Source of the DNA: Rhodospirillales bacterium 69-11
GTDB taxonomy: Bacteria > Pseudomonadota > Alphaproteobacteria > Acetobacterales > Acetobacteraceae
Direction: 5' to 3'
NCBI GenBank assembly: GCA_001898425.1
Contig: MKTV01000029.1
Coordinates: 1-46,270 of the forward strand
Length of the DNA stretch: 46,270 bases
Made by a program: the position numbers and the translations under genes. Of the stretch, positions 24,253-41,770 are shown in pieces. Position 1 is the first letter of the stretch; the number at the start of each line of letters is the position of its first letter. The notes under the pieces were generated by a model, which saw only the letters and a list, made by a program, of their open reading frames with translations, made no database searches and was not told the origin of the DNA.

Positions 24253-24942
24253 ATGAAGGTCCTGTTGGTGGAAGACGACCAGGAGAGCGCGGCCTATGTC
24301 GCGCGGGGCCTGCGGGAGCAGGGCCATGTCGTCGACGTGGCCGCGACCGGGCGCGATGGCCTGTTCCTCGCCACCGACGGCGGCCATGACGTGCTGATCG
24401 TCGACCGCATGCTGCCGGACCTGAACGGGGTCGGGCTCGTGCAGGCCCTGCGTGCGTCGGGGGTCAAGACCCCCGTGCTCTTCCTCACCGCCCTCGCCGG
24501 CGTCGGCGATCGCGTGCGCGGCCTGGACGCGGGCGGCGACGACTATCTCGTCAAGCCCTTCGCCTTCGCCGAACTGCTGGCACGGCTGAACGCGCTCGCG
24601 CGCCGGCCGCCGCTCTCGGACGTGCCGACCGCCCTGCGCGTCGGGGATCTCGAGATGGACCTGCTGAAACGGAGCGTGACGCGCGGCGGGCGGACGGTCG
24701 AGCTGCAACCCCGCGAGTTCCAGCTGCTCGAATACCTGATGCGCCACGCCGACCGTGTCGTCACGCGCACCATGCTGCTCGAAGCGGTCTGGGACTTCCA
24801 TTTCGACCCGCGCACGAACATCGTCGAGACGCATATGAGCCGCCTGCGCGCCAAGCTCGCGCAATCCGGCGGCGGCGAGCTGATCCACACGGTGCGCGGC
24901 GCGGGCTACTCCCTGCGGACGCCCGGCACGAGCGCTGCATGA
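24253..24942 (+). CDS. OmpR/PhoB-family DNA-binding response regulator
   Basis: The 229-residue product has a receiver domain with phosphoacceptor Asp51 in LIVDRMLPD, Thr79 in FLTA and Lys101 in YLVKPF. A winged-helix output domain starts at about 130 (LQPREFQLLEYLMRH, LEAVWDFHFDPRTNIVETHM, IHTVRGAGYSLR). This sequence type is close to the CusR/IrlR group, which often senses metals, but the signal cannot be read from sequence. The start has GGGAGAGG upstream. It overlaps the kinase gene by ATGA and likely controls itself and the DUF347 gene downstream. Confidence 0.94.
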   Translation: MKVLLVEDDQESAAYVARGLREQGHVVDVAATGRDGLFLATDGGHDVLIVDRMLPDLNGVGLVQALRASGVKTPVLFLTALAGVGDRVRGLDAGGDDYLVKPFAFAELLARLNALARRPPLSDVPTALRVGDLEMDLLKRSVTRGGRTVELQPREFQLLEYLMRHADRVVTRTMLLEAVWDFHFDPRTNIVETHMSRLRAKLAQSGGGELIHTVRGAGYSLRTPGTSAA

Positions 24943-26354
24943 GGCCGATCACCGTCCCCCGCGTGTTCAGGGCGGTCAGCTTCCGGTTCGCGGCCCTCTA
25001 CGTCGTCCTCTTCGCCATGTCGGCCATCATTCTGGGCGTCGTGGTGTTCGCCGAGGCGCGATCCGCCCTGCGCGAGCAGATGCAGTCCCGCATCGAAACC
25101 GAGACGGCGTTCCTTGGCGAGGAGTTCCGGGCGGATGGGCTGGATCACCTGGTCGAGGTGATCACGGCGCGTGGGCGAGGCACGACGGCGCTCGACTACC
25201 TGCTTCAGGATCCGTCGGGCCGGCATCTGGTCGGCGAGGTGCCGGCGCAGCCCGGTCTCCGGCCCGGCTGGACGACCATCGACGTGCCGCAGGCCTGGGA
25301 GGATGGTGGCCGGCCGGAACGCATCCGCGCGCTGGTCACCGACCTGGGCGATGGGTTGCGCCTCGTCGTCGGCAGCGATCTCAGGACGATCGGCGATCTG
25401 GAGGAAGCGGTCGCCACCGCCTTCCTCTGGACGATCGGACTCGCGGCGGTGCTCGGCATCACCGGCGGGCTGCTGCTGAGCCGCGCCTTCCTGCGTCGCG
25501 TGGATGCTGTCACCCGCACGGCCGAAGCGATCATCGAGGGAGATCTCTCCCGGCGCATCCCGATGCACGGGACCGGCGACGATCTCGATCATCTCGCGGC
25601 GACCCTGAACCGGATGCTCGACCGGATCGGCACGCTCATGGACAGTCTGCGGCAGGTCAGCAGCGACGTCGCCCATGACCTGAGGACGCCTCTGACACGC
25701 CTCTACCACCGCCTGGAGGAGGCGCGGCTGCGCGCCCGTTCGGGCGAGGCGCATGAGGCTTTGATCGAGGGCGCGATCGCCGAGGCCCAGGGTCTGCTCG
25801 CCACCTTCTCGGCCCTGCTGCGGATCGCGCAGGTCGAGGGCGTGTCGTCGCGGGCCGGCTTCGGCGAGGTCGATGTCAGCGCGCTCGCGGAGACCGTCGC
25901 CGATGCCTACCGCCCCGACGCGGAGGACGCCGGCTACCGGCTCGTCGGCGCCATCGGCCCGGACCTCGGCATCCAGGGGGATCGGGAACTCCTGACCCAG
26001 GCGCTGGCGAACCTCGTGGAGAACGCGCTGCGGCACACGCCGCCCGGAACCCGGATCAGGATCTTTGGGCAGCGTGCCGGCCCGAGCGCGGTGTGTTTCG
26101 GGGTGGAGGATGACGGCCCCGGTGTCGCCGCGGAGGAGCTGCCGCGCCTCACCGAACGCTTCTATCGCAGCGAACGAAGTCGCACCGCATCCGGCAACGG
26201 CCTCGGCCTGAGCTTCGTCGCTGCCGTCGCCGACCTGCACGGCGCGCGCCTGCAGCTCGAACGGCTGAACCCCGGGCTGCGCTGCGGGATGTGCATCTCC
26301 CGGCGCGAGGCGCACGTCGCGCTCATCGACCGCGCGAAGCCGGTCACCCGCTGA
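24939..26354 (+). CDS. sensor histidine kinase
   Basis: This 471-residue inner-membrane kinase is the partner of the preceding regulator. Transmembrane segments lie at about 17-38 and 158-181, flanking a periplasmic domain of about 120 residues that has no recognisable ligand motif. HAMP spans about 182-235. The phosphorylated residue is His246 in SSDVAHDLRTPL. The ATP domain has the N-box NLVENALRHTP (Asn362), the G1 box VEDDGPGV and the G2 box GNGLGLS. The HDLRTP form fits kinases paired with OmpR-type regulators. Confidence 0.94.
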   Translation: MRPITVPRVFRAVSFRFAALYVVLFAMSAIILGVVVFAEARSALREQMQSRIETETAFLGEEFRADGLDHLVEVITARGRGTTALDYLLQDPSGRHLVGEVPAQPGLRPGWTTIDVPQAWEDGGRPERIRALVTDLGDGLRLVVGSDLRTIGDLEEAVATAFLWTIGLAAVLGITGGLLLSRAFLRRVDAVTRTAEAIIEGDLSRRIPMHGTGDDLDHLAATLNRMLDRIGTLMDSLRQVSSDVAHDLRTPLTRLYHRLEEARLRARSGEAHEALIEGAIAEAQGLLATFSALLRIAQVEGVSSRAGFGEVDVSALAETVADAYRPDAEDAGYRLVGAIGPDLGIQGDRELLTQALANLVENALRHTPPGTRIRIFGQRAGPSAVCFGVEDDGPGVAAEELPRLTERFYRSERSRTASGNGLGLSFVAAVADLHGARLQLERLNPGLRCGMCISRREAHVALIDRAKPVTR

Positions 26355-26377: not shown

Positions 26378-27166
26378 ATGCATCACGCGACACGAGCGGG
26401 CCGCGCCAGCAAGGTGCCGGAGGTCACGCTGGCATTCTGGATCATCAAGATCGCCGCCACCACACTCGGAGAGACCGGCGGCGACACGGTGACGATGACG
26501 CTGAATTGGGGCTACCTCGCCGGCACCGTCCTGTTCATGGCCATCCTGGTGCTGCTCGTCATCGCGCAGATCCGCGCGCGGCGTTTCCATCCGGTTCTCT
26601 ACTGGGCGACGATCGTGGCTTCGACGACGTTCGGCACCACGATGGCGGATTTCGCCGATCGCTCGCTGGGCATCGGCTACACGGGCGGATCGAGCCTGCT
26701 CTTCGTCTCGCTGATCGGCGTCCTGGGCCTGTGGTACCTGTCGCAGGGCACCGTCTCGGTGAATACCGTCGCGACGCCGAAGGTCGAGGCGTTCTACTGG
26801 GCGGCGATCACCTGCTCCCAGACGCTGGGCACCGCCCTCGGCGATTGGCTGGCCGATACCGGCGGCCTGGGATACGAGGGAGGTGCGCTCGTGTTCGGTG
26901 CCGCCCTGGCCGTCGTCGCCGGCCTCTACGCCTGGACCGGAACGTCGCGGGTGCTGCTGTTCTGGGCGGCCTTCATCCTGACGCGACCGCTGGGCGCGAC
27001 CGTCGGCGATTACCTCGACAAGCCCGTGGCTGATGGCGGACTGGCGCTCAGCCGGCCGCTCGCGTCGGCGGTGATCGCCGTCTTCATCGTCGCGTGCCTG
27101 CTGGTGCTCCGGCAGCGCCCCGGCCGGCATCCCGGGGAGGCGCCCGCCACCGTCTCGGGAGATTGA
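26378..27166 (+). CDS. membrane protein with four DUF347-type repeats
   Basis: The 262-residue product is an integral membrane protein with about eight hydrophobic segments. A motif recurs four times, near residues 24-37 (KIAATTLGETGGD), 76-91 (ending TTFGTTMAD), 141-156 (ending QTLGTALGD) and 196-211 (ending RPLGATVGD). This is the pattern of the DUF347 family (COG4705). The first repeat alone carries a Glu (GETGGD). The acidic residues in or near the membrane could bind a cation, but the function is not established. It starts 23 bp after the kinase gene, so it is the likely third gene of the two-component operon and perhaps its output. Confidence 0.85.
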   Translation: MHHATRAGRASKVPEVTLAFWIIKIAATTLGETGGDTVTMTLNWGYLAGTVLFMAILVLLVIAQIRARRFHPVLYWATIVASTTFGTTMADFADRSLGIGYTGGSSLLFVSLIGVLGLWYLSQGTVSVNTVATPKVEAFYWAAITCSQTLGTALGDWLADTGGLGYEGGALVFGAALAVVAGLYAWTGTSRVLLFWAAFILTRPLGATVGDYLDKPVADGGLALSRPLASAVIAVFIVACLLVLRQRPGRHPGEAPATVSGD

Positions 27167-29944: not shown

Positions 29945-29984
29945 CGTCGATAAAAGATATATCAGATATGAGTTTTTGCTCATG
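29945..29984 (+). promoter_or_regulatory. AT-rich leader with inverted repeat over the start codon of the XRE gene
   Basis: This is one of the few AT-rich spots in the window. It has the palindrome GATATATC (29956-29963), a repeated AGATAT, and the inverted pair ATGAG-N6-CTCAT at 29968-29983 that overlaps the ATG at 29982. No Shine-Dalgarno sequence is visible. It may be a promoter/operator for self-control by the XRE protein, or a leaderless or hairpin-controlled start. Clear -35/-10 boxes could not be assigned. Confidence 0.4.
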
Positions 29985-30236
29985 ATCACCGCCGGCCAGA
30001 TGCGCGCCGCCCGGGCCCTGCTGGGGATCGACCAGCGGCGCCTGGCCGAACTGTCCACCCTGTCGCTGCCCACCATCCAGCGCATGGAGGCGAGCGGCGA
30101 CGTCGTGCGCGGCAACGTCGACTCGCTGGTGAAGCTGGTGCGGGCGCTGCGCGGAGCCGGGGTCGAGCTGATCGACGAGGGCGCGGCTTCGGCCGCCGGC
30201 GGCCGCGGCGTGCGGCTGATCGGACGCCCGGCGTGA
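29982..30236 (+). CDS. small XRE-type helix-turn-helix regulator
   Basis: The 84-residue product has one helix-turn-helix: MITAGQMRAARALLGIDQRR, LAELSTLSLPTIQRMEASGD, and then the C-terminal extension LRGAGVELIDEG...RGVRLI. This layout is typical of small alphaproteobacterial XRE regulators, in which the C-terminal GVEFID/GVRL strands form a short tail. The ATG at 29982 begins the conserved MITAGQ. It ends 37 bp before the Hyf-like operon and runs in the same direction, so it is a plausible local regulator; direct evidence is lacking. Confidence 0.88.
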   Translation: MITAGQMRAARALLGIDQRRLAELSTLSLPTIQRMEASGDVVRGNVDSLVKLVRALRGAGVELIDEGAASAAGGRGVRLIGRPA

Positions 30237-30273
30237 CACGCGCCCCTGCCGCCCGCGACCGCCGGCGCGCGTG

Positions 30274-32271
30274 ATGGCGCTGATCGGGCCGGCTTTCGGG
30301 AGCTTCGCCCTGCTCGCCGCGCTTGGCGTCGTGCTGGGGCGGCACGCGGCGGGGCGATGGCTGGTCTATGGCGGCAGCCTGCTCGCCTGCCTCCTGCTGC
30401 TGGCTACCGGGATCGGGGCGCTGGACGCCCCGCCCGAGACGCTGGTGCTGCCGGTCGGGCTGCCCTGGACCGGGGCGCATCTCAGGCTCGATCCGCTCTC
30501 CGGGGCGTTCCTCGCGCTGATCGGGATCGGGGGCGCGGGCGCCTCCCTGTTCGCGGTCGGCTATGGCCGGGACGAGCATGCGCCGCAGCGCGTGCTGCCC
30601 TTCTATCCGGCCTTCCTGGCCGGCATGACGCTGGTCGTGCTGGCCGACGACGCGTTCAGCTTCCTGTTCGCGTGGGAACTGATGTCGCTCGCCTCCTGGG
30701 CGCTGGTCATGGCCGACCATCGGCCGGACGCGACGGCGCGCGCGGGCTACGTGTACCTGCTCATGGCGACGTTCAGCGGGATGACGCTGCTGCTCGCCTT
30801 CGGGCTGCTGGCCGGGACCGGGGGCGGCTACGCCTTCGCACAGATGCGGGCGGCGCAGCCTGCGCCGTTTATCGCCGGCCTCGCCTTCGCGCTCGCCCTG
30901 ATCGGCACCGGCGCCAAGGCCGGGCTGGTGCCGCTGCAGGTCTGGCTGCCGCTCGCCCATCCCGCCGCGCCCAGCCACGTCTCCGCGCTGATGAGCGGGG
31001 TGATGACCAAGGTCGCGATCTACGGCTTCCTGCGCATCGTGCTCGACCTGCTGGGCGCCGCCGCCTGGTGGCAGGCGGTCGTGGTGCTGGCCCTGGGCGG
31101 CATCACCGCGGTGTTCGGCGTGCTGCAGGCGGTGATGGAGCGCGACCTCAAGCGCCTGCTCGCCTGCTCCACGATCGAGAATGTCGGCATCGTCTTCGTC
31201 GCGATCGGGCTGGCCATGGCGTTCCGCGCCAACGGCATCGCCGGTGGGGCGGCGCTGGCGCTGACCGCGGCGCTGTTCCACTGCCTCAACCACACGCTGT
31301 TCAAGTCGCTGCTGTTCCAGGTGTCGGGCGCGGTGCTGGTCGCGACCGGGACGCGCGACCTGGAGCGGCTGGGCGGGCTGATCCACCGCCTGCCGGTCAC
31401 CGCGATAGCGGCGCTGGTCGGCTGCGCCGCGATCGCCGCGCTGCCGCCGCTCAACGGGTTCGCCTCGGAATGGCTGATCTTCCAGGCCGTGCTGCTGCGC
31501 CCGGACCTGCCGCAATGGGGGCTCAAGCTGATGCTGCCGGTCGACGGCGCGCTGCTCGCCCTGGCCGCGGCACTGGCGGCGGCGTGCTTCGTGCGGGCCT
31601 ACGGCATCGTCTTCCTGGGGCGCCCGCGCAGCGAGGCCGCGGCGGTGGCGCAGGAGGTGGACCCGGTCTCCCGCGCGGCCATGCTGATCTTCGCGGCGCT
31701 CTGTGCGCTGGCCGGCCTGTTCCCCGGCGTGGTGATCGACGCGCTGGCTCCGGTCGTGCAGCCCTTCGCGGGCGGGCGCATGCCGGTGCAACTGGGCGAG
31801 GACTGGCTGACCGTGGTGCCGGTCGACGCCGCGCGGGGCACCTATAACGGCCTGCTGGTCGGCGTGTTCATCCTGGGCTCCGCCGCGCTCGCCGCCGCTG
31901 CGGTGCACCGGCTGGGCTCGCGCGCGGTGCGGCGCGGGCCGGCCTGGGATTGCGGCTTCCCCGATCCGCGGCCGATCACGCAGTACGGCGGCGATTCCTT
32001 CGCCCAGCCGCTGCGGCGGGTGTTCGGCTCCGTCGTCTTCCAGACGCAGGAGCAGGTCGACATGCCCCGGCCGGGCGAGATGCGCGCCGCGGCCATCGTG
32101 AAATCCATCCGCGATCCCGTCTGGGACCTGCTCTACGTGCCGCTCGGTGGCTTCGTCGCGCGCCTGTCGGACCGCATGAACGGCCTGCAGTTCCTCACCA
32201 TCCGCCGCTACCTCGGCTTCGTGTTCGCGATGCTGATCGTGCTGCTGCTCGCGCTGACGGTGACGCAGTGA
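30274..32271 (+). CDS. hyfB: hydrogenase-4 subunit B-like, Mrp/NuoL-type antiporter subunit
   Basis: The 665-residue integral membrane protein belongs to the proton-antiporter family (NuoL/M/N, HyfB, HycC). About 14-16 hydrophobic helices are present. Key features are the acidic helix AWELMSLASWALVM (Glu), LIGTGAKAGLVPLQVWLPLA with its membrane lysine, MSGVMTKVAIYGFLR, and ERDLKRLLACSTIENVGIVF. The C-terminal DCGFPDPRPITQYGGDSF is characteristic of HyfB/HycC rather than of complex I subunits. It should form an ion-translocating part of the complex. The GTG at 30271 directly before the ATG is an equal alternative start. It overlaps the next gene by GTGA. Confidence 0.93.
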   Translation: MALIGPAFGSFALLAALGVVLGRHAAGRWLVYGGSLLACLLLLATGIGALDAPPETLVLPVGLPWTGAHLRLDPLSGAFLALIGIGGAGASLFAVGYGRDEHAPQRVLPFYPAFLAGMTLVVLADDAFSFLFAWELMSLASWALVMADHRPDATARAGYVYLLMATFSGMTLLLAFGLLAGTGGGYAFAQMRAAQPAPFIAGLAFALALIGTGAKAGLVPLQVWLPLAHPAAPSHVSALMSGVMTKVAIYGFLRIVLDLLGAAAWWQAVVVLALGGITAVFGVLQAVMERDLKRLLACSTIENVGIVFVAIGLAMAFRANGIAGGAALALTAALFHCLNHTLFKSLLFQVSGAVLVATGTRDLERLGGLIHRLPVTAIAALVGCAAIAALPPLNGFASEWLIFQAVLLRPDLPQWGLKLMLPVDGALLALAAALAAACFVRAYGIVFLGRPRSEAAAVAQEVDPVSRAAMLIFAALCALAGLFPGVVIDALAPVVQPFAGGRMPVQLGEDWLTVVPVDAARGTYNGLLVGVFILGSAALAAAAVHRLGSRAVRRGPAWDCGFPDPRPITQYGGDSFAQPLRRVFGSVVFQTQEQVDMPRPGEMRAAAIVKSIRDPVWDLLYVPLGGFVARLSDRMNGLQFLTIRRYLGFVFAMLIVLLLALTVTQ

Positions 32272-33263
32272 ACGGGATCGCGCTCGCCGGCGCGGGATGG
32301 GGCGGACAGGGCCTGCTCGCGGCGCTGCTGATCCAGGCCGGGCAGATGGCGCTGGTGCTCCTGGCCGCGCCGCTGCTGGTCGGGATCGTGCGCAAGGCGA
32401 AGGCGCGGCTGCAGCGACGCCGCGGCGCGTCCGTGCTGCAGCCCTATCGCGACCTGCGCCGGCTGCTGGGCAAGGAGGTCGTGCTGGCCGAGAACGCCTC
32501 CTGGCTGTTCCGCACCGCGCCCTACGCGATCTTCGCCGCGACCTGGGTCGCGGCGGCGCTGGTGCCCACCTTCGCGACGGGGCTGATCTTCTCCTGGACC
32601 GGCGACCTGATCGTGATCACGGCGCTGCTGGGCGGCGCGCGGTTCGCGCTGGCGCTGGCGGGCATGGATATCGGCACGAGCTTCGGCGGCCTCGGCGCCT
32701 CGCGCGAGGTCATGATCGCCTCGCTCGCCGAACCCGCGATGCTGATGCTGGTGTTCTGCGTCGCGATCGTCGCGGGATCGACGCAGCTCTCCTCCGTCGC
32801 CGCCTACATGCTGACCCAGCCGGTGGGCCTGCGGGTCTCCCTCGCGCTCGCGCTGGTCGCGCTGTGCATCGTGGCGGTGGCCGAGAACGGGCGCGTGCCG
32901 GTCGACAACCCGGCGACGCATCTCGAGCTCACGATGGTGCACGAGGCGATGGTGCTGGAATATTCCGGCCGCCATCTCGCGATGATCGAGCTCGCCTCCG
33001 CGCTGAAGCTGCTGCTGTTCGCGTCCCTGATCGGCTGCCTGTTCTTCCCCTTCGGCCTCGCACACGCCGGCAGCGCGTGGACCGGGTACCTGCTGGCGAT
33101 CGGATTGTGGTGCGGCAAGCTGCTGGTCATGGCCGGGCTGCTGGGCACGCTCGAGCTGTCGATCGCCAAGATGCGCGTCTTCCGCGTGCCCAACTTCCTC
33201 GGCGCCGCCTTCATGTTCGGGCTGCTGGGCGTGCTGCTGCTGTTCGTCTCACGGGGGATGTGA
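32268..33263 (+). CDS. hyfC: hydrogenase-4 subunit C-like, NuoH-type membrane anchor subunit
   Basis: The 331-residue membrane protein is homologous to HyfC/HycD and complex I NuoH. RRRGASVLQPYRDLRRLLGKE lies in the first cytoplasmic loop. The conserved VAENGRVPVDNPATHLELTM and VHEAMVLEYSG form the loop that in complex I lines the quinone channel. It links the membrane arm to the large and small subunits. The GTG start at 32268 overlaps the hyfB stop. About eight transmembrane helices are visible. Confidence 0.93.
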   Translation: MNGIALAGAGWGGQGLLAALLIQAGQMALVLLAAPLLVGIVRKAKARLQRRRGASVLQPYRDLRRLLGKEVVLAENASWLFRTAPYAIFAATWVAAALVPTFATGLIFSWTGDLIVITALLGGARFALALAGMDIGTSFGGLGASREVMIASLAEPAMLMLVFCVAIVAGSTQLSSVAAYMLTQPVGLRVSLALALVALCIVAVAENGRVPVDNPATHLELTMVHEAMVLEYSGRHLAMIELASALKLLLFASLIGCLFFPFGLAHAGSAWTGYLLAIGLWCGKLLVMAGLLGTLELSIAKMRVFRVPNFLGAAFMFGLLGVLLLFVSRGM

Positions 33264-33265
33264 GC

Positions 33266-33928
33266 ATGCACGGCCTGTCCTTCGACATCGCGCATATGCT
33301 GGCCGGCTCGCTGGTGCTGGTCAGCTTCCTGATGCTCTACCAGGTGCGGCTGACCGCGCTGCTGCACGTGCTGGCGCTGCACGCGCTGGTGCTGGCGGCC
33401 TCGGTCGCGTGGCAGGCGCACATCCAGGATGCGCCGCATCTCTACGTCACGGCGGCGATGGCGCTGGGCTTCAAGGCGCTGCTCATTCCCTGGGCGCTGC
33501 GCCGCATCGTCTTCCGCCTGGGCATCCATCGGGAGATCGAGACGGTGGGCGGGATCGGCCTGACCATGCTGGGCGGCATGGCGCTGGTCGCGCTGTCGCT
33601 GCAGGTGATGCTGCCGGTCACCGCGATGTCCGATCCGGTGGCGCGGGAGGATATCGCCCTCGCGCTCTCGGTCGTGCTGATCGGGCTGCTGATGATGGTC
33701 ACGCGCCGCAACGCGGTCAGCCAGGTGGTCGGCTTCCTGTCGCTGGAGAACGGCATCATCCTGGCGGCGACCGGCGCGCGCGGCATGCCGCTGGTGGTGG
33801 AGATCAGCGTCGCCTTCTCGGTGCTGATCGCCTTCATCGTCGTCGGCATCTTCCTGTTCCGCATCCGGGAGCGCTTCGACACGGTCGACGTGGGCGCGCT
33901 CGACGAAGTCCGCGGGGGGCGCGCGTGA
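33266..33928 (+). CDS. hyfE: hydrogenase-4 subunit E-like membrane protein
   Basis: The 220-residue product has the length and sequence of HyfE, which resembles NuoK-like parts of the antiporter module. About six to seven hydrophobic helices are present. The segment RRNAVSQVVGFLSLENGIIL contains the membrane glutamate expected for proton transfer. The ATG at 33266 follows the hyfC stop by two bases. Its stop overlaps the GTG of the next gene. E. coli HyfE has the same neighbours except that HyfD is missing here. Confidence 0.92.
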   Translation: MHGLSFDIAHMLAGSLVLVSFLMLYQVRLTALLHVLALHALVLAASVAWQAHIQDAPHLYVTAAMALGFKALLIPWALRRIVFRLGIHREIETVGGIGLTMLGGMALVALSLQVMLPVTAMSDPVAREDIALALSVVLIGLLMMVTRRNAVSQVVGFLSLENGIILAATGARGMPLVVEISVAFSVLIAFIVVGIFLFRIRERFDTVDVGALDEVRGGRA

Positions 33929-35361
33929 TCGATCCCGTTGTTCTCGTGCTGCTGATCCCGCTGGCGGCGACGGCGCTGCTGGCGGCAATCCCGAACTACC
34001 GGCTGGGCGCGGCGCTGAACGCGGCCGCCTGCCTGGCGACGTTCGGCGCGTCCGTCGGCCTGCTGCTGCACCGGCCCGCCGCGGGCGCCTACCTGCTAGT
34101 CGACGACCTGAACGTCGTGTTCGTGGTGCTGAACGGGTTCGTCGCCGCGACCACCAGCCTGTTCAGCGCGTCCTATGTCGGCCACGAGCTCGCGACCGGC
34201 CGGCTCACGCCGCGGCACCTGCGGTTCTACCACGCGATGTTCCAGCTCATGCTGTTCGGCATGAACCTCGCCCTCGTCGCCAACAACATCGGGCTGATGT
34301 GGGTGGCCGTCGAACTGGCGACGCTGACCACGGTGCTGATGGTGGGGCTCTATCGCACGCCGGAGGCGCTGGAGGCGGCGTGGAAATACTTCATCCTGGG
34401 AAGCGTCGGCATCGCGCTCGCGCTGTTCGGGACGATCCTCGTCTACCTCGCGGCGCGGCCGGTGGTGGGGGAGGGGCTGGACGCGATGGTCTGGACCACG
34501 CTGCTCGCCCATGCCCGCGACTTCGACGCGCCGCTGCTGAACATCGCCTTCGTGTTCCTGCTGCTGGGCTACGGCACGAAGGTCGGGCTGGTGCCGCTGC
34601 ACGCGTGGCTCCCGGACGCGCATGCCGAGGGGCCGACGCCGATCTCCGCCGTGCTCTCGGGCCTGCTGCTCAACGTCGCGCTCTACGCGCTGCTGCGCTT
34701 CAAGATGCTGCTTGCCGCCAACCCGCTCGCCCTCGCCCCCGGCCCGCTGATGATCGCGCTCGGACTCCTCACCGTGCTGTTCGCCGGCGTGATGCTGTAC
34801 CGGCGACGCGACGTGAAGCGGCTGTTCGCCTACTCCTCGATCGAGCACATGGGGATCATCGTCTTCGCGTTCGGGCTTGCCGGGCCGATCGGCAACTTCG
34901 CCGGCCTGCTGCAGATGGCGATGCACAGCCTGACCAAGTCGGCGATCTTCTTCTCGGTCGGCCATCTCGCGCAGGTGAAGGGGACGCAGCGCATCGCCGA
35001 GATCGGCGGCGTGACGGAGACGCACCCGCTGCTGGGCTGGGGCCTCGTCGCCGGCGTCTCGGCGATCGTCGGGCTGCCGCCCTTCGGCGTGTTCGCCGCG
35101 GAGTTCCTCGTGGTGACCTCGGCCTTCGCGCAGCACCCGCTGCTGGCGGTGGGGCTGGTGGTGGGCCTGTTGCTCGCCTTCGGGGCGCTGCTGCTGCGCC
35201 TGACGCAGGTGGCGTTCGGGGCGGTGCGCGGGCCTTTGCAGCCGGTGCGGGCGTCGCACCTGCCGATGCTCGCGCACCTCGCGCTGGTGCTGGTGGCGGG
35301 CGTGTGGCTGCCGCCGCCCATGGTCGCCTGGTTCCAGCACGTCGCGGAGCTGCTGGGATGA
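33925..35361 (+). CDS. hyfF: hydrogenase-4 subunit F-like, NuoL/M-type antiporter subunit
   Basis: The 478-residue product is a second antiporter-like subunit with about 14 helices. VAVELATLTTVLMVGLY carries the conserved Glu. LLLGYGTKVGLVPLHAWLPDAHAEGPTPISAVLSG contains the conserved Lys and the PLHAWLPDAHAEGP signature. RRDVKRLFAYSSIEHMGII and MHSLTKSAIFFSVGH follow. The GTG at 33925 overlaps the hyfE stop, and the stop overlaps the next start by ATGA. Two antiporter-type subunits (B and F) in one operon suggest more than one ion channel per complex. Confidence 0.93.
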   Translation: MIDPVVLVLLIPLAATALLAAIPNYRLGAALNAAACLATFGASVGLLLHRPAAGAYLLVDDLNVVFVVLNGFVAATTSLFSASYVGHELATGRLTPRHLRFYHAMFQLMLFGMNLALVANNIGLMWVAVELATLTTVLMVGLYRTPEALEAAWKYFILGSVGIALALFGTILVYLAARPVVGEGLDAMVWTTLLAHARDFDAPLLNIAFVFLLLGYGTKVGLVPLHAWLPDAHAEGPTPISAVLSGLLLNVALYALLRFKMLLAANPLALAPGPLMIALGLLTVLFAGVMLYRRRDVKRLFAYSSIEHMGIIVFAFGLAGPIGNFAGLLQMAMHSLTKSAIFFSVGHLAQVKGTQRIAEIGGVTETHPLLGWGLVAGVSAIVGLPPFGVFAAEFLVVTSAFAQHPLLAVGLVVGLLLAFGALLLRLTQVAFGAVRGPLQPVRASHLPMLAHLALVLVAGVWLPPPMVAWFQHVAELLG

Positions 35362-36821
35362 GCGCGCACTATCGCCGCACGCAGGTCGACGCGGCCGCTT
35401 GGGAAGAGGCGGCCGACGCCTTGGTTGCGGGCGAAACCACGCTGCTCAGCCTGTGGGCGGAGATCGGCTGCGTCCACATGGCGGTGCTGGACGAGACCGG
35501 CCCCGATGCCGCCGCGGGCGGAGGGAGGATCGCGATCCTCAGCCTCGACTGCCCGGACGCGTGCTTCCCCTCGGTCGGGCGCCGCCATCCGCCGGCGATC
35601 CGGCTGGAACGCGCGGTGCGCGACCTGTTCGGCCTTGTGCCCGAGGGGCTGCCGGATACCCGCCCCTGGCTGGACCATGGCCGCTGGGGGGAGGAGAGCG
35701 TGCCGGCCGCCGCCTATCCGTTCCTGCCGGTCGAGGGGGACGGGCTGCACCAGATCCCCGTCGGCCCGGTCCATGCCGGCATCATCGAGCCCGGGCATTT
35801 CCGCTTCACCTGCGATGGCGAGACGGTCGTGCGGCTGGAGGAGCGGCTGGGCTACGTGCACAAGGGCATCGACCACCTGCTGGCCGGCGCGCCGCTGCCG
35901 GCCGCGGCGCGGATCGCCGCGCGCGTGTCGGGCGACAGCACGGTCGCCTGTTCGCTGGGCTTCGCGCGGGCGGTCGAGCAGGGCCTGGACATCGCGCCGC
36001 CGCTCCGCGCGGTCTGGCTGCGCGCCGTCATGGCGGAAGTGGAGCGGCTCGCGAACCATCTCGGCGACTGGGGCGCGATCTGCAACGACGCGGCGTTCAG
36101 CCTGATGCTCGCGCATTGCGGCGTGCTGCGCGAACGGGTGCTGCGGACCGCGGCGACGTGCTTCGGGCACCGGCTGATGATGGATCGCGTGGTGCCGGGG
36201 GGCGTGGCGGTGGACCTCGACGCGGCGGGTCTCGCGGCCCTGCACGACCTGGTCGCGCTGCTGCGTGCGCGCGTGCCGCCGCTGGTGAAGCTCTACGACG
36301 ACACGGCGTCGCTGCAGGACCGCACCGTGGGCACGGGCCGCGTCAGCCCGGCGCTGGTCGCGCAGTTCGGCGCGGGCGGGTTCGTGGGCCGCGCGGCGGG
36401 ACGCGCCTTCGACGCACGGCGCGCGATCGGTGACGCGCCCTACGACGCGCTGAGCTTCGAGGTGCCGGTGCTGCAGGCGGGCGACGTCAACGCACGCGTC
36501 TGGGTGCGCATCCGCGAGATCGAGCAGAGCCTGTCGCTGCTGGAGCAGCTCCTGCGCGGCCTGCCCACCGGCCCGCTGCGCATTCCGGACGACGACCTGC
36601 CGCGCGGATCGGGCGAGGGCCTCGCGCTGGTCGAGGCGTTCCGCGGCGACCTGTTCGTATGGGTCCGCCTGGAGGCGGGCCAGGTGCGGCGCTGCCACCT
36701 GCGCGACGCGTCCTGGTTCCAATGGCCGCTGCTGGAAGCGGCAATCGAAGGCAACATCGTCGCGGACTTCCCGCTGTGCAACAAGAGTTTCAACTGTTCC
36801 TATTCGGGGCACGACCTGTGA
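35358..36821 (+). CDS. hydrogenase-4 large-subunit-like protein (NuoC/NuoD fusion) lacking [NiFe] ligands
   Basis: The 487-residue product is built like HyfG/HycE: an N-terminal NuoC-like part (1-130) joined to a NuoD/large-subunit part (LEERLGYVHKGIDHL, MAEVERLANHLGDWG, VWVRIREIEQSLSLLEQLL). Catalytic large subunits have RxCGxC after about residue 188; here the place reads RVSGDSTVACS, with Ser191 and Ser194 where the two cysteines should be. The C-terminal DPCxxC is replaced by PLCNKSFNCSYSG (Cys474 and Cys480, five residues between them). It therefore cannot hold a normal [NiFe] centre. It belongs with the energy-converting-hydrogenase-related (Ehr) proteins, whose chemistry is unknown. 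Such proteins are often mislabelled as hydrogenase expression proteins or hydrogenases. Confidence 0.9.
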   Translation: MSAHYRRTQVDAAAWEEAADALVAGETTLLSLWAEIGCVHMAVLDETGPDAAAGGGRIAILSLDCPDACFPSVGRRHPPAIRLERAVRDLFGLVPEGLPDTRPWLDHGRWGEESVPAAAYPFLPVEGDGLHQIPVGPVHAGIIEPGHFRFTCDGETVVRLEERLGYVHKGIDHLLAGAPLPAAARIAARVSGDSTVACSLGFARAVEQGLDIAPPLRAVWLRAVMAEVERLANHLGDWGAICNDAAFSLMLAHCGVLRERVLRTAATCFGHRLMMDRVVPGGVAVDLDAAGLAALHDLVALLRARVPPLVKLYDDTASLQDRTVGTGRVSPALVAQFGAGGFVGRAAGRAFDARRAIGDAPYDALSFEVPVLQAGDVNARVWVRIREIEQSLSLLEQLLRGLPTGPLRIPDDDLPRGSGEGLALVEAFRGDLFVWVRLEAGQVRRCHLRDASWFQWPLLEAAIEGNIVADFPLCNKSFNCSYSGHDL

Positions 36822-37083
36822 GAGGGGCATTGTGCCGGGGCTTGGCCCGTCCCCCTGTGTCATGGCCGGGCTTGGCCCGCCCCCCTGTGTCATGGCCGGG
36901 CGTGGCCCGGCCATCCACGACTGCTCCCGTTCCGTACCTCGAAGTCGTGGATGGCCGGCACAAGGCCGGCCATGACACGGGGACCGGCGGCGGTGCCGGG
37001 CATGACACGGGGCGCGGTGGCGGTGCCGGCCATGACACGGGCGGCCGAACCAAGCTCCGCCGCCGCACGCGGACCGCGCGCCC
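36822..37083. repeat. palindrome cluster with long inverted repeat inside the Hyf-like operon
   Basis: Copies of GTCATGGCCGGGC-TGGCCCG occur at about 36858-36880 and 36889-36915. A 33 bp arm starting TCATGGCCGGGCGTGGCCCG and ending ATCCACGACT (36890-36922) pairs with its imperfect reverse complement at 36942-36974, starting AGTCGTGGATGGCCGGCACA; about 28 of 33 positions match. Further GTGCCGGCCATGACACGGG units follow to about 37040. No gene is present, and the RNA would form a large hairpin between the large- and small-subunit genes. Confidence 0.8.
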
Positions 37084-37611
37084 ATGCTGAAGCATCTTCT
37101 CCAGGGCCTCCGCCGCCCGCTCACCGAGGCCGCGCCGGACGCCGACCCCGCTCTCGCCGACCTCGCCGCGACCCTCGACGCCACTGCCCGCCGCCGGCTT
37201 GGGCGCTCGCTCGCGATCCGCCAGGTCGATGCCGGCTCCTGCAACGGGTGCGAGCTCGAGATCCACGCGCTGAGCAACGCGCTCTACGACCTCGAGCGCT
37301 TCGGCCTGCACGTCGTCGCCTCGCCCCGGCATGCCGACGTGCTGCTGGTCACCGGGCCCGTCACGAAGAACATGCGGGAGGCGCTGGAGCGCACGTGGCG
37401 CGCGACCCCCGATCCGAAATGGGTGGTGGCGGTCGGCGATTGCGGCGCCGATGGCGGCGTGTTCAAGGGCAGCTACGCGGTCGAGGGCGGGGTCGCCGCG
37501 GCGATCCCGGTCGACCTCGTCATCCGCGGCTGCCCGCCCACGCCGACGCAGCTCCTGCAGGGGCTGCTCGCGCTGCTCACTCCGCCGGAACCGCCGCCCT
37601 CCGCCGGGTGA
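37084..37611 (+). CDS. hyfI: hydrogenase-4 small-subunit-like protein (NuoB type, one [4Fe-4S] cluster)
   Basis: The 175-residue product is homologous to HyfI/HycG/NuoB. All four cluster ligands are present: Cys53 and Cys56 in GSCNGCELE, Cys120 in VGDCGADGG, and Cys150 in RGCPPTP. The cluster nearest the active site or quinone site should therefore be intact, unlike the large-subunit ligands. The ATG at 37084 has no clear ribosome site and follows 262 bp of repeats. Its 3' end overlaps the convergent symporter gene by 35 bp. No HyfH/NuoI two-cluster ferredoxin gene follows. Confidence 0.92.
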   Translation: MLKHLLQGLRRPLTEAAPDADPALADLAATLDATARRRLGRSLAIRQVDAGSCNGCELEIHALSNALYDLERFGLHVVASPRHADVLLVTGPVTKNMREALERTWRATPDPKWVVAVGDCGADGGVFKGSYAVEGGVAAAIPVDLVIRGCPPTPTQLLQGLLALLTPPEPPPSAG

Positions 37612-39037
37612 CCGCGCTCACCACCGTGAGCGCCACCAGGTTCAGCACCAGTGCGATGATGCCGATGTTGAGGTCGCGCACGCCCTCGGGCCAGGTCGGG
37701 AACAAGGTCGCGAAGCTGGTGTGCGTGAGCGAGGTCGCGGCCACTGTCGCCACGCCCACGCAGATGCCGGCGATCGCGCCCTCGCGCGTCACCGGGTTGT
37801 GCGGCAGCAGGCTCGCCACCAGGCAGGGGAAGAGCTGCGTGACGAAGGCGTAGCCCATCAGCAGCAGCGCGACGATCGTCGTCCCGCCGCTCAGCGTGAA
37901 CCACACCGCGACCAGCGCCACGACCGGAACCAGGCCGCGGGCGAGGTTCGTCACCGTCCGATCCTCGGCATCCGGCCGGAACGCGCGATACAGGTTGTTC
38001 GCGAGCAACGTCGCCGACGACATCAGGATCATCGAGCCCGGCACCAGCGCGGTCAGCACGCCGGCCGCGCCGATCACGCCGATGAACCACGGGTCGAAAT
38101 GCTGCAGCGACAGGCGGAACAGCGCGAGGTCGATGTCGCCGCCGGTCAGCCCCGGGACCTTCAGGATCGCCGCGAACCCCACGAAGAACACGAACAGCAG
38201 GATGAGCTGGTACAGCGGCAGCAGCGCCGCGTTGCGGCGGAACGCGCGCTCCTCCTTCGCGGTGTAGAGCGAGCCGAACGTGTGCGGCCAGCAGTAGAAT
38301 CCGAGCCCGGTCAGCAGTACGGTGGAGTCGAACCAGGCGATGCTCTCGCCGGTGGGACGCAGCGCGAGAAAGCCGGGCTTGGCGGCCTCGATCGCGGTGA
38401 ACATGGCCGTGTAGCCGCCATATTCCTTCAGCGGCAGGTAGATGCCGAGGAACAGCACCACGGCGAGGATCAGCGTGTCCTTCACCACCGCCGTCCAGGC
38501 GGAGCCGTGCACGCCGGAGACCATCACATAGGCGGTCACCACCGCGGCGCCAATCCAGATCGCCGGCGTGGAGCCGATCGAACCGTAGGATGCGGTCGCG
38601 ACGATGATGCCGAGGCCCTTCAGCTGCAGCACGAGATAGGGGATCAGCGCGACGATCCCGACCACTGCCACCAGCACGCCCAGCGCGGAGCTGTCGTATT
38701 TGCGCGCGAAGAAATCGGGCTGGGAGATCAGCCGGTGCTGCTTGGCGTAGCGCCAGATCGGCGGCAGCAGCCAGTAGGAGATGATGTAGGCGAGGCAGCC
38801 GTAGCTCAGGATGTAGAAGGCGGGACCGCCATGGCCGTAGGCGTAGCCGGAGCCGCCGAGGAAGGTGAAGGTCGTGTAGATCTCGCCCGCCATCAGCACG
38901 AAGACCAGGATTGTGCCGAAGCCGCGGCCGCCGACGCTCCACTGCTCGAGGTCCATGTCCTTGCCGCGGCGCGCCCTGAGGCCGAGGAGCAGGGCGCCGA
39001 GGGCGGTGAGGGCGATGATGAGGAGGGCGGCGTTCAT
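37577..39037 (-). CDS. sodium:solute symporter (SSS family, monocarboxylate-transporter-like)
   Basis: The 486-residue product has about 13 hydrophobic helices. Family features include SVGGRGFGTILVFVLMAGEIYTTFTFLG near the N-terminus, IPYLVLQLKGLGIIV, MVSGVHGSAWTAVVKDTLIL, and LVPGSMILMSSATLLANNLYR with the Ser/Thr-rich sodium-site helix. The sequence resembles MctP-like permeases for short monocarboxylates, and the substrate is inferred from that alone. It is translationally coupled (ATGA) to the small DUF3311 gene, a common pairing. It is convergent with hyfI and overlaps its end. Confidence 0.92.
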   Translation of the reverse strand: MNAALLIIALTALGALLLGLRARRGKDMDLEQWSVGGRGFGTILVFVLMAGEIYTTFTFLGGSGYAYGHGGPAFYILSYGCLAYIISYWLLPPIWRYAKQHRLISQPDFFARKYDSSALGVLVAVVGIVALIPYLVLQLKGLGIIVATASYGSIGSTPAIWIGAAVVTAYVMVSGVHGSAWTAVVKDTLILAVVLFLGIYLPLKEYGGYTAMFTAIEAAKPGFLALRPTGESIAWFDSTVLLTGLGFYCWPHTFGSLYTAKEERAFRRNAALLPLYQLILLFVFFVGFAAILKVPGLTGGDIDLALFRLSLQHFDPWFIGVIGAAGVLTALVPGSMILMSSATLLANNLYRAFRPDAEDRTVTNLARGLVPVVALVAVWFTLSGGTTIVALLLMGYAFVTQLFPCLVASLLPHNPVTREGAIAGICVGVATVAATSLTHTSFATLFPTWPEGVRDLNIGIIALVLNLVALTVVSAVTRRRAAVPAE

Positions 39038-39246
39038 CGGGGCGTCCGCCGCGCGGGCTCATCCGCGTTCGCCGGGTCGCATTGGTAGATGATCGTCATG
39101 ATGGCCGCCGTCAGCAGGATCCACAGCACGATCCATGCGAGCAGCAGCGGCATGCCGAACACCAGCGGCGTCACGCGATTGAAGAAGAACACGCCGCCCA
39201 GCAGCCCCAGGAAGGGGAGGGCGGCCAGATACCTGACCCACGCCAT
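39034..39246 (-). CDS. DUF3311 family small membrane protein
   Basis: The 70-residue product has two transmembrane helices: YLAALPFLGLLGGVFFF, the linker NRVTPLVFGMP, then LLLAWIVLWILLTAAIMTIIY. Size, layout and position directly before an SSS symporter match DUF3311, which is thought to be an accessory subunit of these transporters. The ATG at 39246 begins MAWVRYLAALP; earlier in-frame codons lead into unrelated sequence. It is divergent from the molybdoenzyme gene across 203 bp. Confidence 0.88.
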   Translation of the reverse strand: MAWVRYLAALPFLGLLGGVFFFNRVTPLVFGMPLLLAWIVLWILLTAAIMTIIYQCDPANADEPARRTPR

Positions 39247-39449: not shown

Positions 39450-41770
39450 ATGAACGACCTCGACCCGACCGATCTCCGCCGGATGGACCTTCGCCAGAAC
39501 GCCTCGCACTGGGGGGCATTCACCGCCGCGGTCCGGGAGGGCCGCATCACCGACATCCGGCCGTTCGCGGCCGATCCCGACCCGTCGCCGATCATCTACG
39601 GCACGGCCGAGGCGGTGCATGGCCGCCTGCGCATCGATCGCCCTCATGTCCGCAAGGGCTGGCTGGAGGGCGATCGCGCCGGCGGCACGCTGCGTGCGCG
39701 GGAGCCGTTCGTGCCGGTGGACTGGGACACGGCGACGCGGCTGGTGGCGGGCGAGCTCACCCGCGTGCGCGACGGGTTCGGACCGGCCAGCATCTATGGC
39801 GGGTCCTACGGCTGGTCCTCGGCCGGGCGGTTCCACCACGCCAAGACGCAGCTCCAGCGCATGCTGGCGGTCGCGGGCGGGTTCACCACCAGCCTCATGA
39901 GCTACTCCTACGCAGCCGGCCAGGCGATCATGCCCCACATCCTGGGTGACATGAGCAGCGTGGTCGGGCCGGTGACCGATTGGCGCGCCATCGCCCGCAT
40001 GCGCGGGTGATGCTGTGCTTCGGCGGCGTCCCGCTGCGCAACGGTCAGATCATCAATGGCGGCGGCGGCGAGCACGACATGGGTCCGTGGCTGCGCCATG
40101 CCGCCAAGGCGGGCGTGCGGCTGATCAACATCTCGCCCGTGAAGGCGGACATGCCGGAGGACGTGCCGGCCGAGTGGATCCCGATCCGGCCCACCACCGA
40201 TACCGCGCTGATGCTGGCGCTCGCCCATGTGCTGATCACCGAGGACCGGGTCGACCACGCGTTCCTCGACCGCTGCACCAGCGGCTACGACCGGTTGCGC
40301 GCCTATGTGCTGGGCGAGACCGACGGCACGCCCAAGACACCCGACTGGGCGGCGGCCGAGACCGGCATCCCGGTCGATCGGATCGTGACGCTGGCGCGGG
40401 AGGTCGCGGGCGCGCCCACCATGCTGACCGCCGCCTGGTCCTTGCAGCGCGCGGAGTATGGGGAGCAGCCGTTCTGGATGCTGGCGGCGCTCGCGGCTCT
40501 GCTGGGCAGCATCGGCAAGCCGGGCCTGGGCGTGGGGTTCGGCCACGGCTCGATCGCCGGCATGGGCACGATCCGGGGCGACTTCCCGACCGTCGGCATG
40601 TCGGCCTTTCCGAACCGCGCCAACAGCATCATCCCGGTCGCCCGCATCACCGACATGCTGGAGAACCCCGGCGCCGAGTACGACTACAACGGCCGCCGGC
40701 TGCGCTATCCCGACACGCGGCTGATCTACTGGGCGGGCGGCAATCCGTTCCACCACCACCAGGATCTCAACCGGTTCCGCCGCGCCTGGGCACGCGCGGA
40801 GACGATCGTGGTGCACGAGCCGCGGTGGACCTCCGCCGCGCGCCATGCGGATATCGTGCTGCCCGCCACCACGACGCTGGAGCGCGACGACATCGCCTCC
40901 TCCGCGCGGGACCGGTTCGTGCTGGCGATGAAGCAGGTCGTGCCGCCGCAGGGCCAGGCGCGCGACGACTATGCGATCTGCGCCGACATCCTGGATGCGA
41001 TGGGCTTGCGCGAGCGTTTCACCGAACAGCGTGACGTCGATGCCTGGCTGCGCTTCCTCTACGGCCGCTGGCACGACCAGATGGGCAGGATCGGCCACCC
41101 CGTGCCGGATTTCGACGCGTTCTGGGCGGAGGGACGGGTCGAGCTGCCGGAGCGGGCGGACGACGTCGTGCCGCTCGCCGAGTTCGTGCGCGACCCGGAG
41201 CGCCACCGGCTCAACACCGGCAGCGGCCGGATCGAGCTGTTCTCCGAGACGATCGCCGGCTTCGGCTACGACGATTGTCCGGGCCACCCGACCTGGTTCA
41301 CGCCCCGCGAGTATCTGGGCGCCCCGCGCGCGGCGCAGTACCCGCTGCACCTGCTGACGGCGCAGCCCGCGACTCGGCTGCACAGCCAGATGGACGCGGT
41401 GGGCGTGAGCCGCGACAGTAAGGTCCGGGGCCGCGAGCCGATCTGGCTGCATGCGGACGACGCCGCCGCGCGCGGCCTGGCCGACGGTGACGTCGTGCGG
41501 GTGTTCAACGATCGCGGCGCCTGCCTCGCCGGCGTCCGGCTGACCCGGGACCAGTTGCCGGGCGTGGCCGTGCTGCCGACCGGCGCCTGGTACGACCCGC
41601 AGGACGCGCTGTGCGTGCACGGCAATCCGAACGTGCTGACGCAGGATATCGGCACCTCGAAGCTGGGGCAGGGACCCGTGGCGCAGAGCTGCCTCGTCGA
41701 GGTCGAGCGGTTCGACGGTCCGTTGCCGCAGGTGACGGTGCACGCACCACCCGCGACCACGGAGGGATGA
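39450..41770 (+). pseudogene. BisC/DMSO-reductase-family molybdopterin oxidoreductase, frameshifted
   Basis: The two parts together would give a normal-length (about 773 residues) cluster-free reductase of the BisC/TorA/DorA type, which reduces S- or N-oxides using a bis-MGD cofactor. The first part (39450-40010) begins MNDLDPTDLRRMDLR and contains YGGSYGWSSAGRFHH, which has the molybdenum-ligand serine. It ends at TGA after DWRAIARMRG. The second part (readable from 39980 to 41770) continues with HARVMLCFGGVPLRNGQI in a frame one base off. Motifs after the break are intact (WAGGNPFHHHQDLNRFRRAW, PATTTLERDDI, LTAQPATRLHSQMD). There is no twin-arginine signal or Fe-S motif at the start. One missing base near 40000 explains it: either a real mutation or a sequencing error. 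Confidence 0.85.
39990..40012 (+). other. frameshift site in the molybdoenzyme gene
   Basis: The expected protein runs ...DWRAIA-x-HARVMLCFGG. The bases between the GCC of IA and the CAT of H are only CG, so one base is missing. The run GCGCCATCGCCCGCATGCGC is GC-rich and self-complementary, the kind of stretch that causes sequencing or replication slips. No X-XXY-YYZ slippery heptamer is visible, so programmed frameshifting is unlikely. Confidence 0.75.

Follow-up and report, generated by a model that had tools for sequence, protein, structure and literature searches.

Rhodospirillales bacterium 69-11, of the Acetobacteraceae, carries a six-gene operon for a membrane complex of the complex I/hydrogenase-4 superfamily whose large subunit, HyfG, appears to have lost its [NiFe] site, a loss supported by alignment, by a missing C-terminal tail and by the lack of a match to the maturation protein HypD in 64 of 80 genomes with relatives of the operon. 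The operon lies in a stretch of 46,270 nucleotides (contig MKTV01000029.1, positions 1 to 46,270; hereafter the window) and fits the published accounts of energy-converting-hydrogenase-related (Ehr) complexes, which are related to group 4 hydrogenases and are without Ni/Fe-binding residues (PMC6349859, PMC10284858, PMC6688271, PMC7894505, PMC8691401), the likeness being one of description. Judged from sequence, it most likely encodes an ion-translocating membrane oxidoreductase of the Ehr type that has a single [4Fe-4S] cluster and a pocket rebuilt for chemistry other than that of H2; we favour this reading with moderate confidence. The retention of cluster ligands and proton-path residues suggests another chemistry in the pocket; H2 takes no part in the reaction, which is probably not quinone reduction of the complex I type either. 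An earlier note on this DNA had already grouped the operon with Ehr complexes, in agreement with the published descriptions; it had also counted the complex among catalytically inactive relatives, which is apt for H2 chemistry but goes too far for a complex that keeps its cluster ligands and the proton-path residues of formate hydrogenlyase (FHL).

Operon architecture

The coordinates and families of the hydrogenase-4-like gene set that the earlier note had placed at 30274..37611 were borne out, as follows.

30274-32271, + strand: hyfB homologue, antiporter-like subunit (PF00361, 166 bits; NCBIfam hydrogenase 4 subunit B, 828.5 bits)
32268-33263, + strand: hyfC homologue of the NuoH/HycD type, GTG start (PF00146, 127.6 bits; alignment with HyfC, HycD and NuoH)
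33266-33928, + strand: hyfE homologue with a NuoK-like C-terminal part (NCBIfam hydrogenase 4 membrane subunit, 79.9 bits; alignment)
33925-35361, + strand: hyfF homologue, second antiporter-like subunit, GTG start (PF00361, 176 bits; NCBIfam hydrogenase 4 subunit F, 839 bits)
35358-36821, + strand: hyfG homologue, NuoC-NuoD-type fusion (Complex1_30kDa and Complex1_49kDa) without [NiFe] ligands and without C-terminal tail
36822-37083, no strand: interspersed palindromic repeat in the gap between hyfG and hyfI, with direct and inverted repeats
37084-37611, + strand: hyfI homologue, small subunit (Oxidored_q6, PF01058, 115 bits) with four cysteines (53, 56, 120, 150)

Pfam and NCBIfam together place the six genes in the complex I/hydrogenase-4 superfamily, with Proton_antipo_M as the Pfam family of HyfB and HyfF and NADHdh as that of HyfC. 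HyfB and HyfF exceed the NCBIfam cut-offs for the hydrogenase 4 subunits, HyfE stays below its own (136 for the hydrogenase 4 membrane subunit) and gave no match when the protein was searched against Pfam, and HyfG reaches only 19 bits against Pfam NiFeSe_Hases, under the cut-off of 25.8. Among chains of solved structure, phmmer found HycE to be the best relative of HyfG and HycG that of HyfI. A GTG lies just ahead of the hyfB start, at 30271.

The gene order B-C-E-F-G-I recurs wherever locus clustering recognised the subunits, although extra frames were called within the operon in loci L050, L065 and L123, hyfI was unrecognised in several loci, and no HyfG cluster member was called in 7 of 141. 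The six genes lie on the same strand, and the earlier note had described them as one operon; since the gap between hyfG and hyfI holds the palindromic repeat, a transcript running through hyfI can only be inferred. This gap measures 262 bp in the window against a median of 12 bp over 136 loci, five of which are true hydrogenases, and its repeat has 102 matching pieces in the same genome, where 40 of 415 candidates were scored.

Loss of the [NiFe] ligands in HyfG

Group 4 [NiFe] hydrogenases are recognised by an N-terminal CxxC and a C-terminal DPCxxC in the large subunit, neither of which is present in HyfG of the window. The motif RVCGICGFA of Escherichia coli HycE aligns with RVSGDSTVA of HyfG, so that Ser191 and Ser194 occupy the first cysteine pair, as had been noticed earlier in RVSGDST, and SLDPCYSC aligns with SFNCSYSG, in which the DPCxxC is gone, again as proposed. 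The four ligands of HycE thus map as C241 to S191, C244 to S194, C531 to S481 and C534 to G484, and alignment with HycE, HyfG and NuoCD of E. coli, part of the check that the earlier note had proposed, leaves no CxxC at either pair.

The alignment holds 148 rows, comprising 140 Ehr rows (138 distinct), among which close relatives of the window are over-represented, and eight others (E. coli HyfG, HycE and NuoCD, and L179-L183). Ehr rows carry Ser at position 191 in 132 cases, Ser at 194 in 121, Ser at 481 in 132 and Gly at 484 in 139; Cys at 191 alone occurs in two Ehr rows, and both N-terminal cysteines occur only in six rows, all of them hydrogenases. The C-terminus of HyfG falls at the same column in 143 of the 148 rows, and the remaining five, hydrogenases of the HycE/HyfG type, are 32 residues longer. 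Absence of this tail is by itself no proof of a lost [NiFe] site, because L183, which has CxxC, is also without it.

In a tree of 130 HyfG rows, from which 18 rows were omitted (duplicates, short ones and some thinning), the 123 rows without CxxC pairs, including the very long row L182, form one group apart from HycE/HyfG with a Shimodaira-Hasegawa-like approximate likelihood ratio (SH-aLRT) value of 100, subject to a long-branch warning; the rows nearest to the window come from its own genus and from the Acetobacteraceae. A structure of HyfG predicted from 75 rows has a mean predicted local distance difference test score (pLDDT) of 84.6 and a predicted template modelling score (pTM) of 0.89.

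Residues retained in HyfG, HyfI and the antiporter-like subunits

The roles of active-site and proton-path residues in HycE have been described with the FHL structure (PMC9474812), and the proton path is largely kept in Ehr rows: E144 in 137 of 140, R429 in 139, and H234, E387 and R345 in all 140. The canopy residue Asp529 of HycE, which is Asp also in E. coli NuoCD, corresponds to Asn479 in HyfG (Asn in 135/140). Three further residues, Asp193 (139/140), His271 (137/140) and Asp276 (139/140), differ from those of E. coli HycE, HyfG and NuoCD. At the place of the complex I quinone histidine HyfG has Ile143 (133/140), and at that of the quinone-site tyrosine it has Gly192 (137/140); H139 was considered as a counterpart of the quinone histidine and rejected, the alignment placing that histidine at I143.

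HyfI of the window has Cys53, Cys56, Cys120 and Cys150, the expected ligands of one [4Fe-4S] cluster, and all four are kept in 137 of 139 rows (129 of 131 among Ehr rows), the exceptions being L041 and L071. HyfB keeps E135, K215, K246 and E399, conserved in 112-114 of 115 HyfB rows, and HyfF keeps E130, K219, N250 and E393, conserved in 128-130 of 130 HyfF rows. The antiporter-type subunits and the four-cysteine small subunit therefore look as intact in these key residues as had been proposed from the letters. Between the window and its congener L186, the ratio of nonsynonymous to synonymous substitution rates (dN/dS) is 0.27 for B, 0.17 for C, 0.07 for E, 0.12 for F, 0.18 for G and 0.41 for I; with values of 0.07-0.41 for all six genes, the operon is judged to be under purifying selection, neither decaying nor a relic.

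The kinship of hyfI is a separate observation. This gene is 88% identical to its counterpart in L042 and only 73% identical to that in L186, whereas the other window genes are closer to L186, and over 169 residues hyfI of L186 (10208-10714) is identical to that of L014, a locus of another genus. This pattern may reflect recombination, transfer or the mixing of assemblies.

Distribution and [NiFe] maturation

Within the order of the window's genome, 295 of 299 genomes match at E<=1e-20, a threshold that also admits NuoD, so that this is not a count of Ehr complexes. A ten-row HyfG profile at E<=1e-60 matched 36 of 385 genomes in a sample of the class and 76 of 398 in one of the phylum, which overlaps it; among the weakest matches are the true hydrogenases L179-L181 and L183, all with CxxC, and the very divergent L182. 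A scan of named genomes gave at least 574 relatives, the best 80 of which come from Bradyrhizobium, Mesorhizobium, Rhizobium, Azospirillum, Rhodopseudomonas, Acetobacteraceae and others, and 59 plasmid records carry a relative. Annotations of Ehr relatives include NADH-quinone oxidoreductase and nickel-dependent hydrogenase.

HypD, by its annotation the scaffold for assembly of the Fe(CN)2CO group, was sought in 80 of 105 listed Ehr-positive genomes; no match was found in 64 of the 80 searched (listed as 94-100% complete), and no [NiFe] cofactor is therefore expected in those genomes. The 16 with a match include the window's own, in which HypD accompanies a separate [NiFe] hydrogenase cluster on contig C62. 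The same genome has a normal NuoD and, on contig C60, another six-gene Ehr operon that is more divergent (L036:8540-15380, - strand, with a short stretch of N), whose HyfG has lost the SGDS motif (A191, A192, A194), has D144 and keeps H234, R272, D276, R345, E387 and R429.

A reduced genome that kept Ehr and lost complex I

NuoD was present in 49 of the 50 Ehr genomes in which it was sought, the exception being G466, a genome of 0.9 Mb listed as 100% complete (905,706 bases examined, GC fraction 0.333). Its nuoB, nuoC and nuoD are fragments in L191:4860-6400 (- strand), with 21, 25 and 46 stops in the three frames and no open run longer than 107 codons; E. coli NuoA and NuoE-K queries found no match, and those for NuoL/M/N pick out no locus other than L191 and L074, which carry Ehr. 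The Ehr genes themselves have open frames (B 665, E 226, F 499, G 500 and I 184 codons), with a contig break inside hyfC, and HyfG is identical to that of the window at 23 listed pocket positions, as are two relatives in the tree, L069 and L149. G466 thus kept Ehr where complex I was lost; this is one genome, and a whole operon can survive by chance.

The remaining energy metabolism of G466 includes a fumarate reductase set, of a type known from Wolinella (part of FrdA and FrdB above the NCBIfam cut-offs, cytochrome b below), MenA- and MenG-type genes, AtpA/D/G of the F1 ATPase, FumA, and homologues of GlpA, GlpC and PyrD. With E. coli queries no match was found for HypA-E, PflB, AceE/F, Lpd, PntA/B, Rsx, Ndh-2, Cyo, Cyd, GltA, SucA-C, FdnG/H/I or Mqo, and none in family searches for PF01855 or PF02906; Dld, PflA and AtpB gave weak matches only, and AtpE none. 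Such absences are judged by E. coli queries or single families, by which divergent genes can be missed: E. coli UbiA and FrdC/FrdD queries were negative where family models found MenA and the fumarate reductase cytochrome b. The possibility that G466 has no other quinone reductase than Ehr was rejected, GlpA/GlpC and PyrD homologues being present.

Proposed function and alternative explanations

In the oxidoreductase reading that we favour, electrons would travel through the single HyfI cluster, with a soluble partner at one end and, in the HyfG pocket, a small redox substrate or cofactor at the other, and protonation in the pocket (E144, R429, H234/E387/R345) would be coupled through HyfC to the movement of H+ or Na+ in HyfE, HyfF and HyfB, in a direction that could either make or use the ion gradient. 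The earlier note had likewise proposed an ion-pumping complex with a redox or conformational partner; the retained pump residues are the sole basis of the first part, and no redox partner gene is found beside the operon. Among 140 Ehr loci (2.50 Mb, some of them short), no match to HyfA, HyfH, HyfJ, HycB, HycH or HycI, nor to NuoI, NuoG, NuoF, NuoJ or NuoA, was found at E<=1e-4, where control loci were positive; NuoE was not among the queries. HycF gave a single weak match, in L112, and HyfD matches fall only on B/F-type stretches. With no electron-input arm nearby, it follows that the HyfI cluster serves alone, that a distant gene supplies the arm, or that no electrons enter.

Several points weigh against the oxidoreductase reading. 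A subunit of the NuoI/HyfH type is not found nearby, so that electrons would have to enter directly or via a distant gene; the residue counts come from the sample enriched in close relatives described above; the predicted HyfG structure falls below a pLDDT of 50 in most of 120-167 and in 469-487, which makes its pocket unreliable; and retained residues do not prove pumping. In G466, moreover, the GlpA/GlpC and PyrD homologues are menaquinone-linked, and Ehr need not carry respiratory electrons there.

One alternative is that the complex is a menaquinone or ubiquinone oxidoreductase with a complex I-like quinone pocket and electrons from a soluble donor. It is consistent with the homology of HyfG and NuoD, with D244, a residue of both HyfG and E. 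coli NuoCD that is Phe in HycE, and with N233, the residue of mitochondrial NDUFS2 (N185, PMC9474812), where E. coli NuoCD has Ser. G466 fits it too, in having MenA-/MenG-type genes and fumarate reductase and no match to NuoA, NuoE-K, Ndh-2, Rnf/Rsx, Cyo or Cyd; its GlpA/GlpC and PyrD homologues, however, could reduce menaquinone. With both quinone residues of complex I replaced, by Ile143 and Gly192, we regard this explanation as unlikely.

A redox-silent antiporter, in which the hydrogenase arm is mere scaffold and the complex exchanges cations for H+ in the service of pH or ion balance, is likewise doubtful. Two intact Mrp-type subunits and the lack of electron-input subunits beside the operon would suit such a function, a role in pH homeostasis has been suggested for the Ehr of Methylacidiphilum (PMC6688271), and the second Ehr operon of the same genome has lost more of the pocket (A191, A194, D144). 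A scaffold, on the other hand, would have no need of the four HyfI cysteines found in 129 of 131 Ehr rows, or of proton-path residues found in 137-140 of 140.

The pocket might instead hold another metal or cluster, bound by Cys242, Cys474 and Cys480 together with Asp193/Asp244. These cysteines, the latter two of which adjoin the lost second motif, are widespread (126, 122 and 116 of 148 rows, respectively) and rarely changed, with 8, 7 and 8 changes against 15-21 for four other cysteine columns on a tree of 127 rows that was built without the seven cysteine columns and from which L178, L182 and L183 were additionally omitted. Some Ehr rows are without all three: Gly/Ile/Leu replace them in L086, L087, L088, L092 and L094, Ala/Ile/Gly in L053 and L076, and Leu/Leu/Pro in L085, and the losses in L053, L076 and L085 are separate. 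But the Gly/Ile/Leu rows form one tree group and may represent one event, many rows lack one of these cysteines and have just the other two (for instance L039, L040, L075, L138, L151, L157 and L163), and E. coli HycE also has Cys at 242. Correlated change on the tree gave no significance in the pairs examined, which were not all pairs, by a test too weak to reach it, and the predicted structure is unreliable in this region. A new metal site in the former [NiFe] pocket is therefore a conjecture, and as an explanation of the complex we consider it very unlikely.

That HyfG still works as a hydrogenase with functional cysteines elsewhere is scarcely credible, for all that HyfB and HyfF bear hydrogenase 4 names and the genome also holds HypD and a further [NiFe] hydrogenase cluster, given the missing CxxC at both ligand pairs, the missing tail and the lack of a HypD match in 64 of 80 Ehr genomes.

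Relation to known systems

Published Ehr complexes (Geobacter sulfurreducens GSU0739-0745, Methylacidiphilum ehrABCDLS) likewise combine group 4-like large and small subunits without metal ligands with HyfE-like and antiporter-like membrane subunits, and the window has in one cluster a group 4-type large subunit without Ni/Fe cysteines, a small subunit and Mrp/antiporter-like subunits. The six-gene set is itself already published: the same hyfBCEFGI genes of Cupriavidus metallidurans CH34 and C. eutrophus (necator) H16 have been called an incomplete hyf operon (PMC2864759), the lost ligands going unmentioned in the available part of that paper, and the window operon adds a member from another host to a known family. 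A pairing of formate dehydrogenase with Ehr (FDH-Ehr) has been proposed for some anaerobic lineages (PMC6349859); operons of the window type, in contrast, have none of the tested accessory subunits alongside, apart from the weak HycF match.

Hydrogenase-4 (hyfABCDEFGHIJ) and formate hydrogenlyase-1 (hyc) of E. coli have homologous subunits, and the proton-path residues of HycE are common to HyfG of the window, which differs in the loss of all four Ni/Fe cysteines, in Asn479 for Asp529 and in the missing 32-residue tail, while its operon has no hyfA, hyfH or hyfJ. Compared with complex I, HyfG is NuoC-NuoD-like, HyfI NuoB-like, HyfC NuoH-like and HyfB/F NuoL/M/N-like; the differences are the lack of NuoF/G/I nearby and the replaced quinone-site His and Tyr. 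What has been printed on the function of Ehr, in the parts of the sources available, consists of descriptions and one proteome association with formate in Geobacter (PMC7894505). An Ehr mutant was not found in open PubMed Central (PMC) papers, and neither were the residue map, the HypD count or the case of G466 in the open PMC literature, a search to which subscription papers did not belong.

Genomic neighbourhood

Directly upstream of hyfB, and ending 37 nt before it, lies one further gene:

29982-30236, + strand: h, small XRE-like helix-turn-helix (HTH) protein of 84 amino acids

Its match to HTH_3 (20.5 bits, E 5e-4) is under the 23-bit cut-off. To be counted, a locus needed a long hyfB and 600 nt or more of sequence before it; of the 112 such loci, 40 have a same-strand homologue of h immediately before hyfB, and in 20 of these 40 there is an overlap of 4 nt. 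The h gene is a probable regulator of the operon. Other than h, the most widespread neighbour cluster consists of ATPases of the ATP-binding cassette (ABC) type, in 19 of 141 loci. A redox partner gene beside the operon was sought among the neighbour clusters and not found.

Other surroundings are more particular. In several Roseomonas-like loci (L049-L053, L167, L172) a set resembling tripartite ATP-independent periplasmic (TRAP) transporters, judged by eye, lies divergently upstream. In the window, a sodium/solute symporter resembling MctP (238 bits against a cut-off of 625), followed by a DUF3311 gene, occupies 37577-39246 (- strand), convergent with the Ehr operon. A molybdopterin oxidoreductase at 39450-41770 is split in two frames (39450-40010 and 40010-41770) that cover successive parts of one Pfam domain, for which a frameshift or a sequencing error are candidate causes. 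A DUF347 repeat protein at 26378-27166 lies downstream of a response regulator/histidine kinase pair (24253-26354).

Implications

The residue map of HyfG shows what stays conserved when the [NiFe] site is gone, and G466 offers a natural setting in which the role of Ehr, which this genome does not itself reveal, can be narrowed down. As a tentative and rather improbable extension of these findings, the complex I superfamily may have in Ehr a second energy-coupling complex, free of [NiFe] and able to outlive complex I, which would serve as the main redox-linked ion pump in G466, with an active site that may be a centre of Cys242/Cys474/Cys480 and Asp193 in the former [NiFe] pocket. Operons of the Ehr type are common, so that an energy-coupling complex still in need of explanation is carried by many bacteria that live in soil or with plants.

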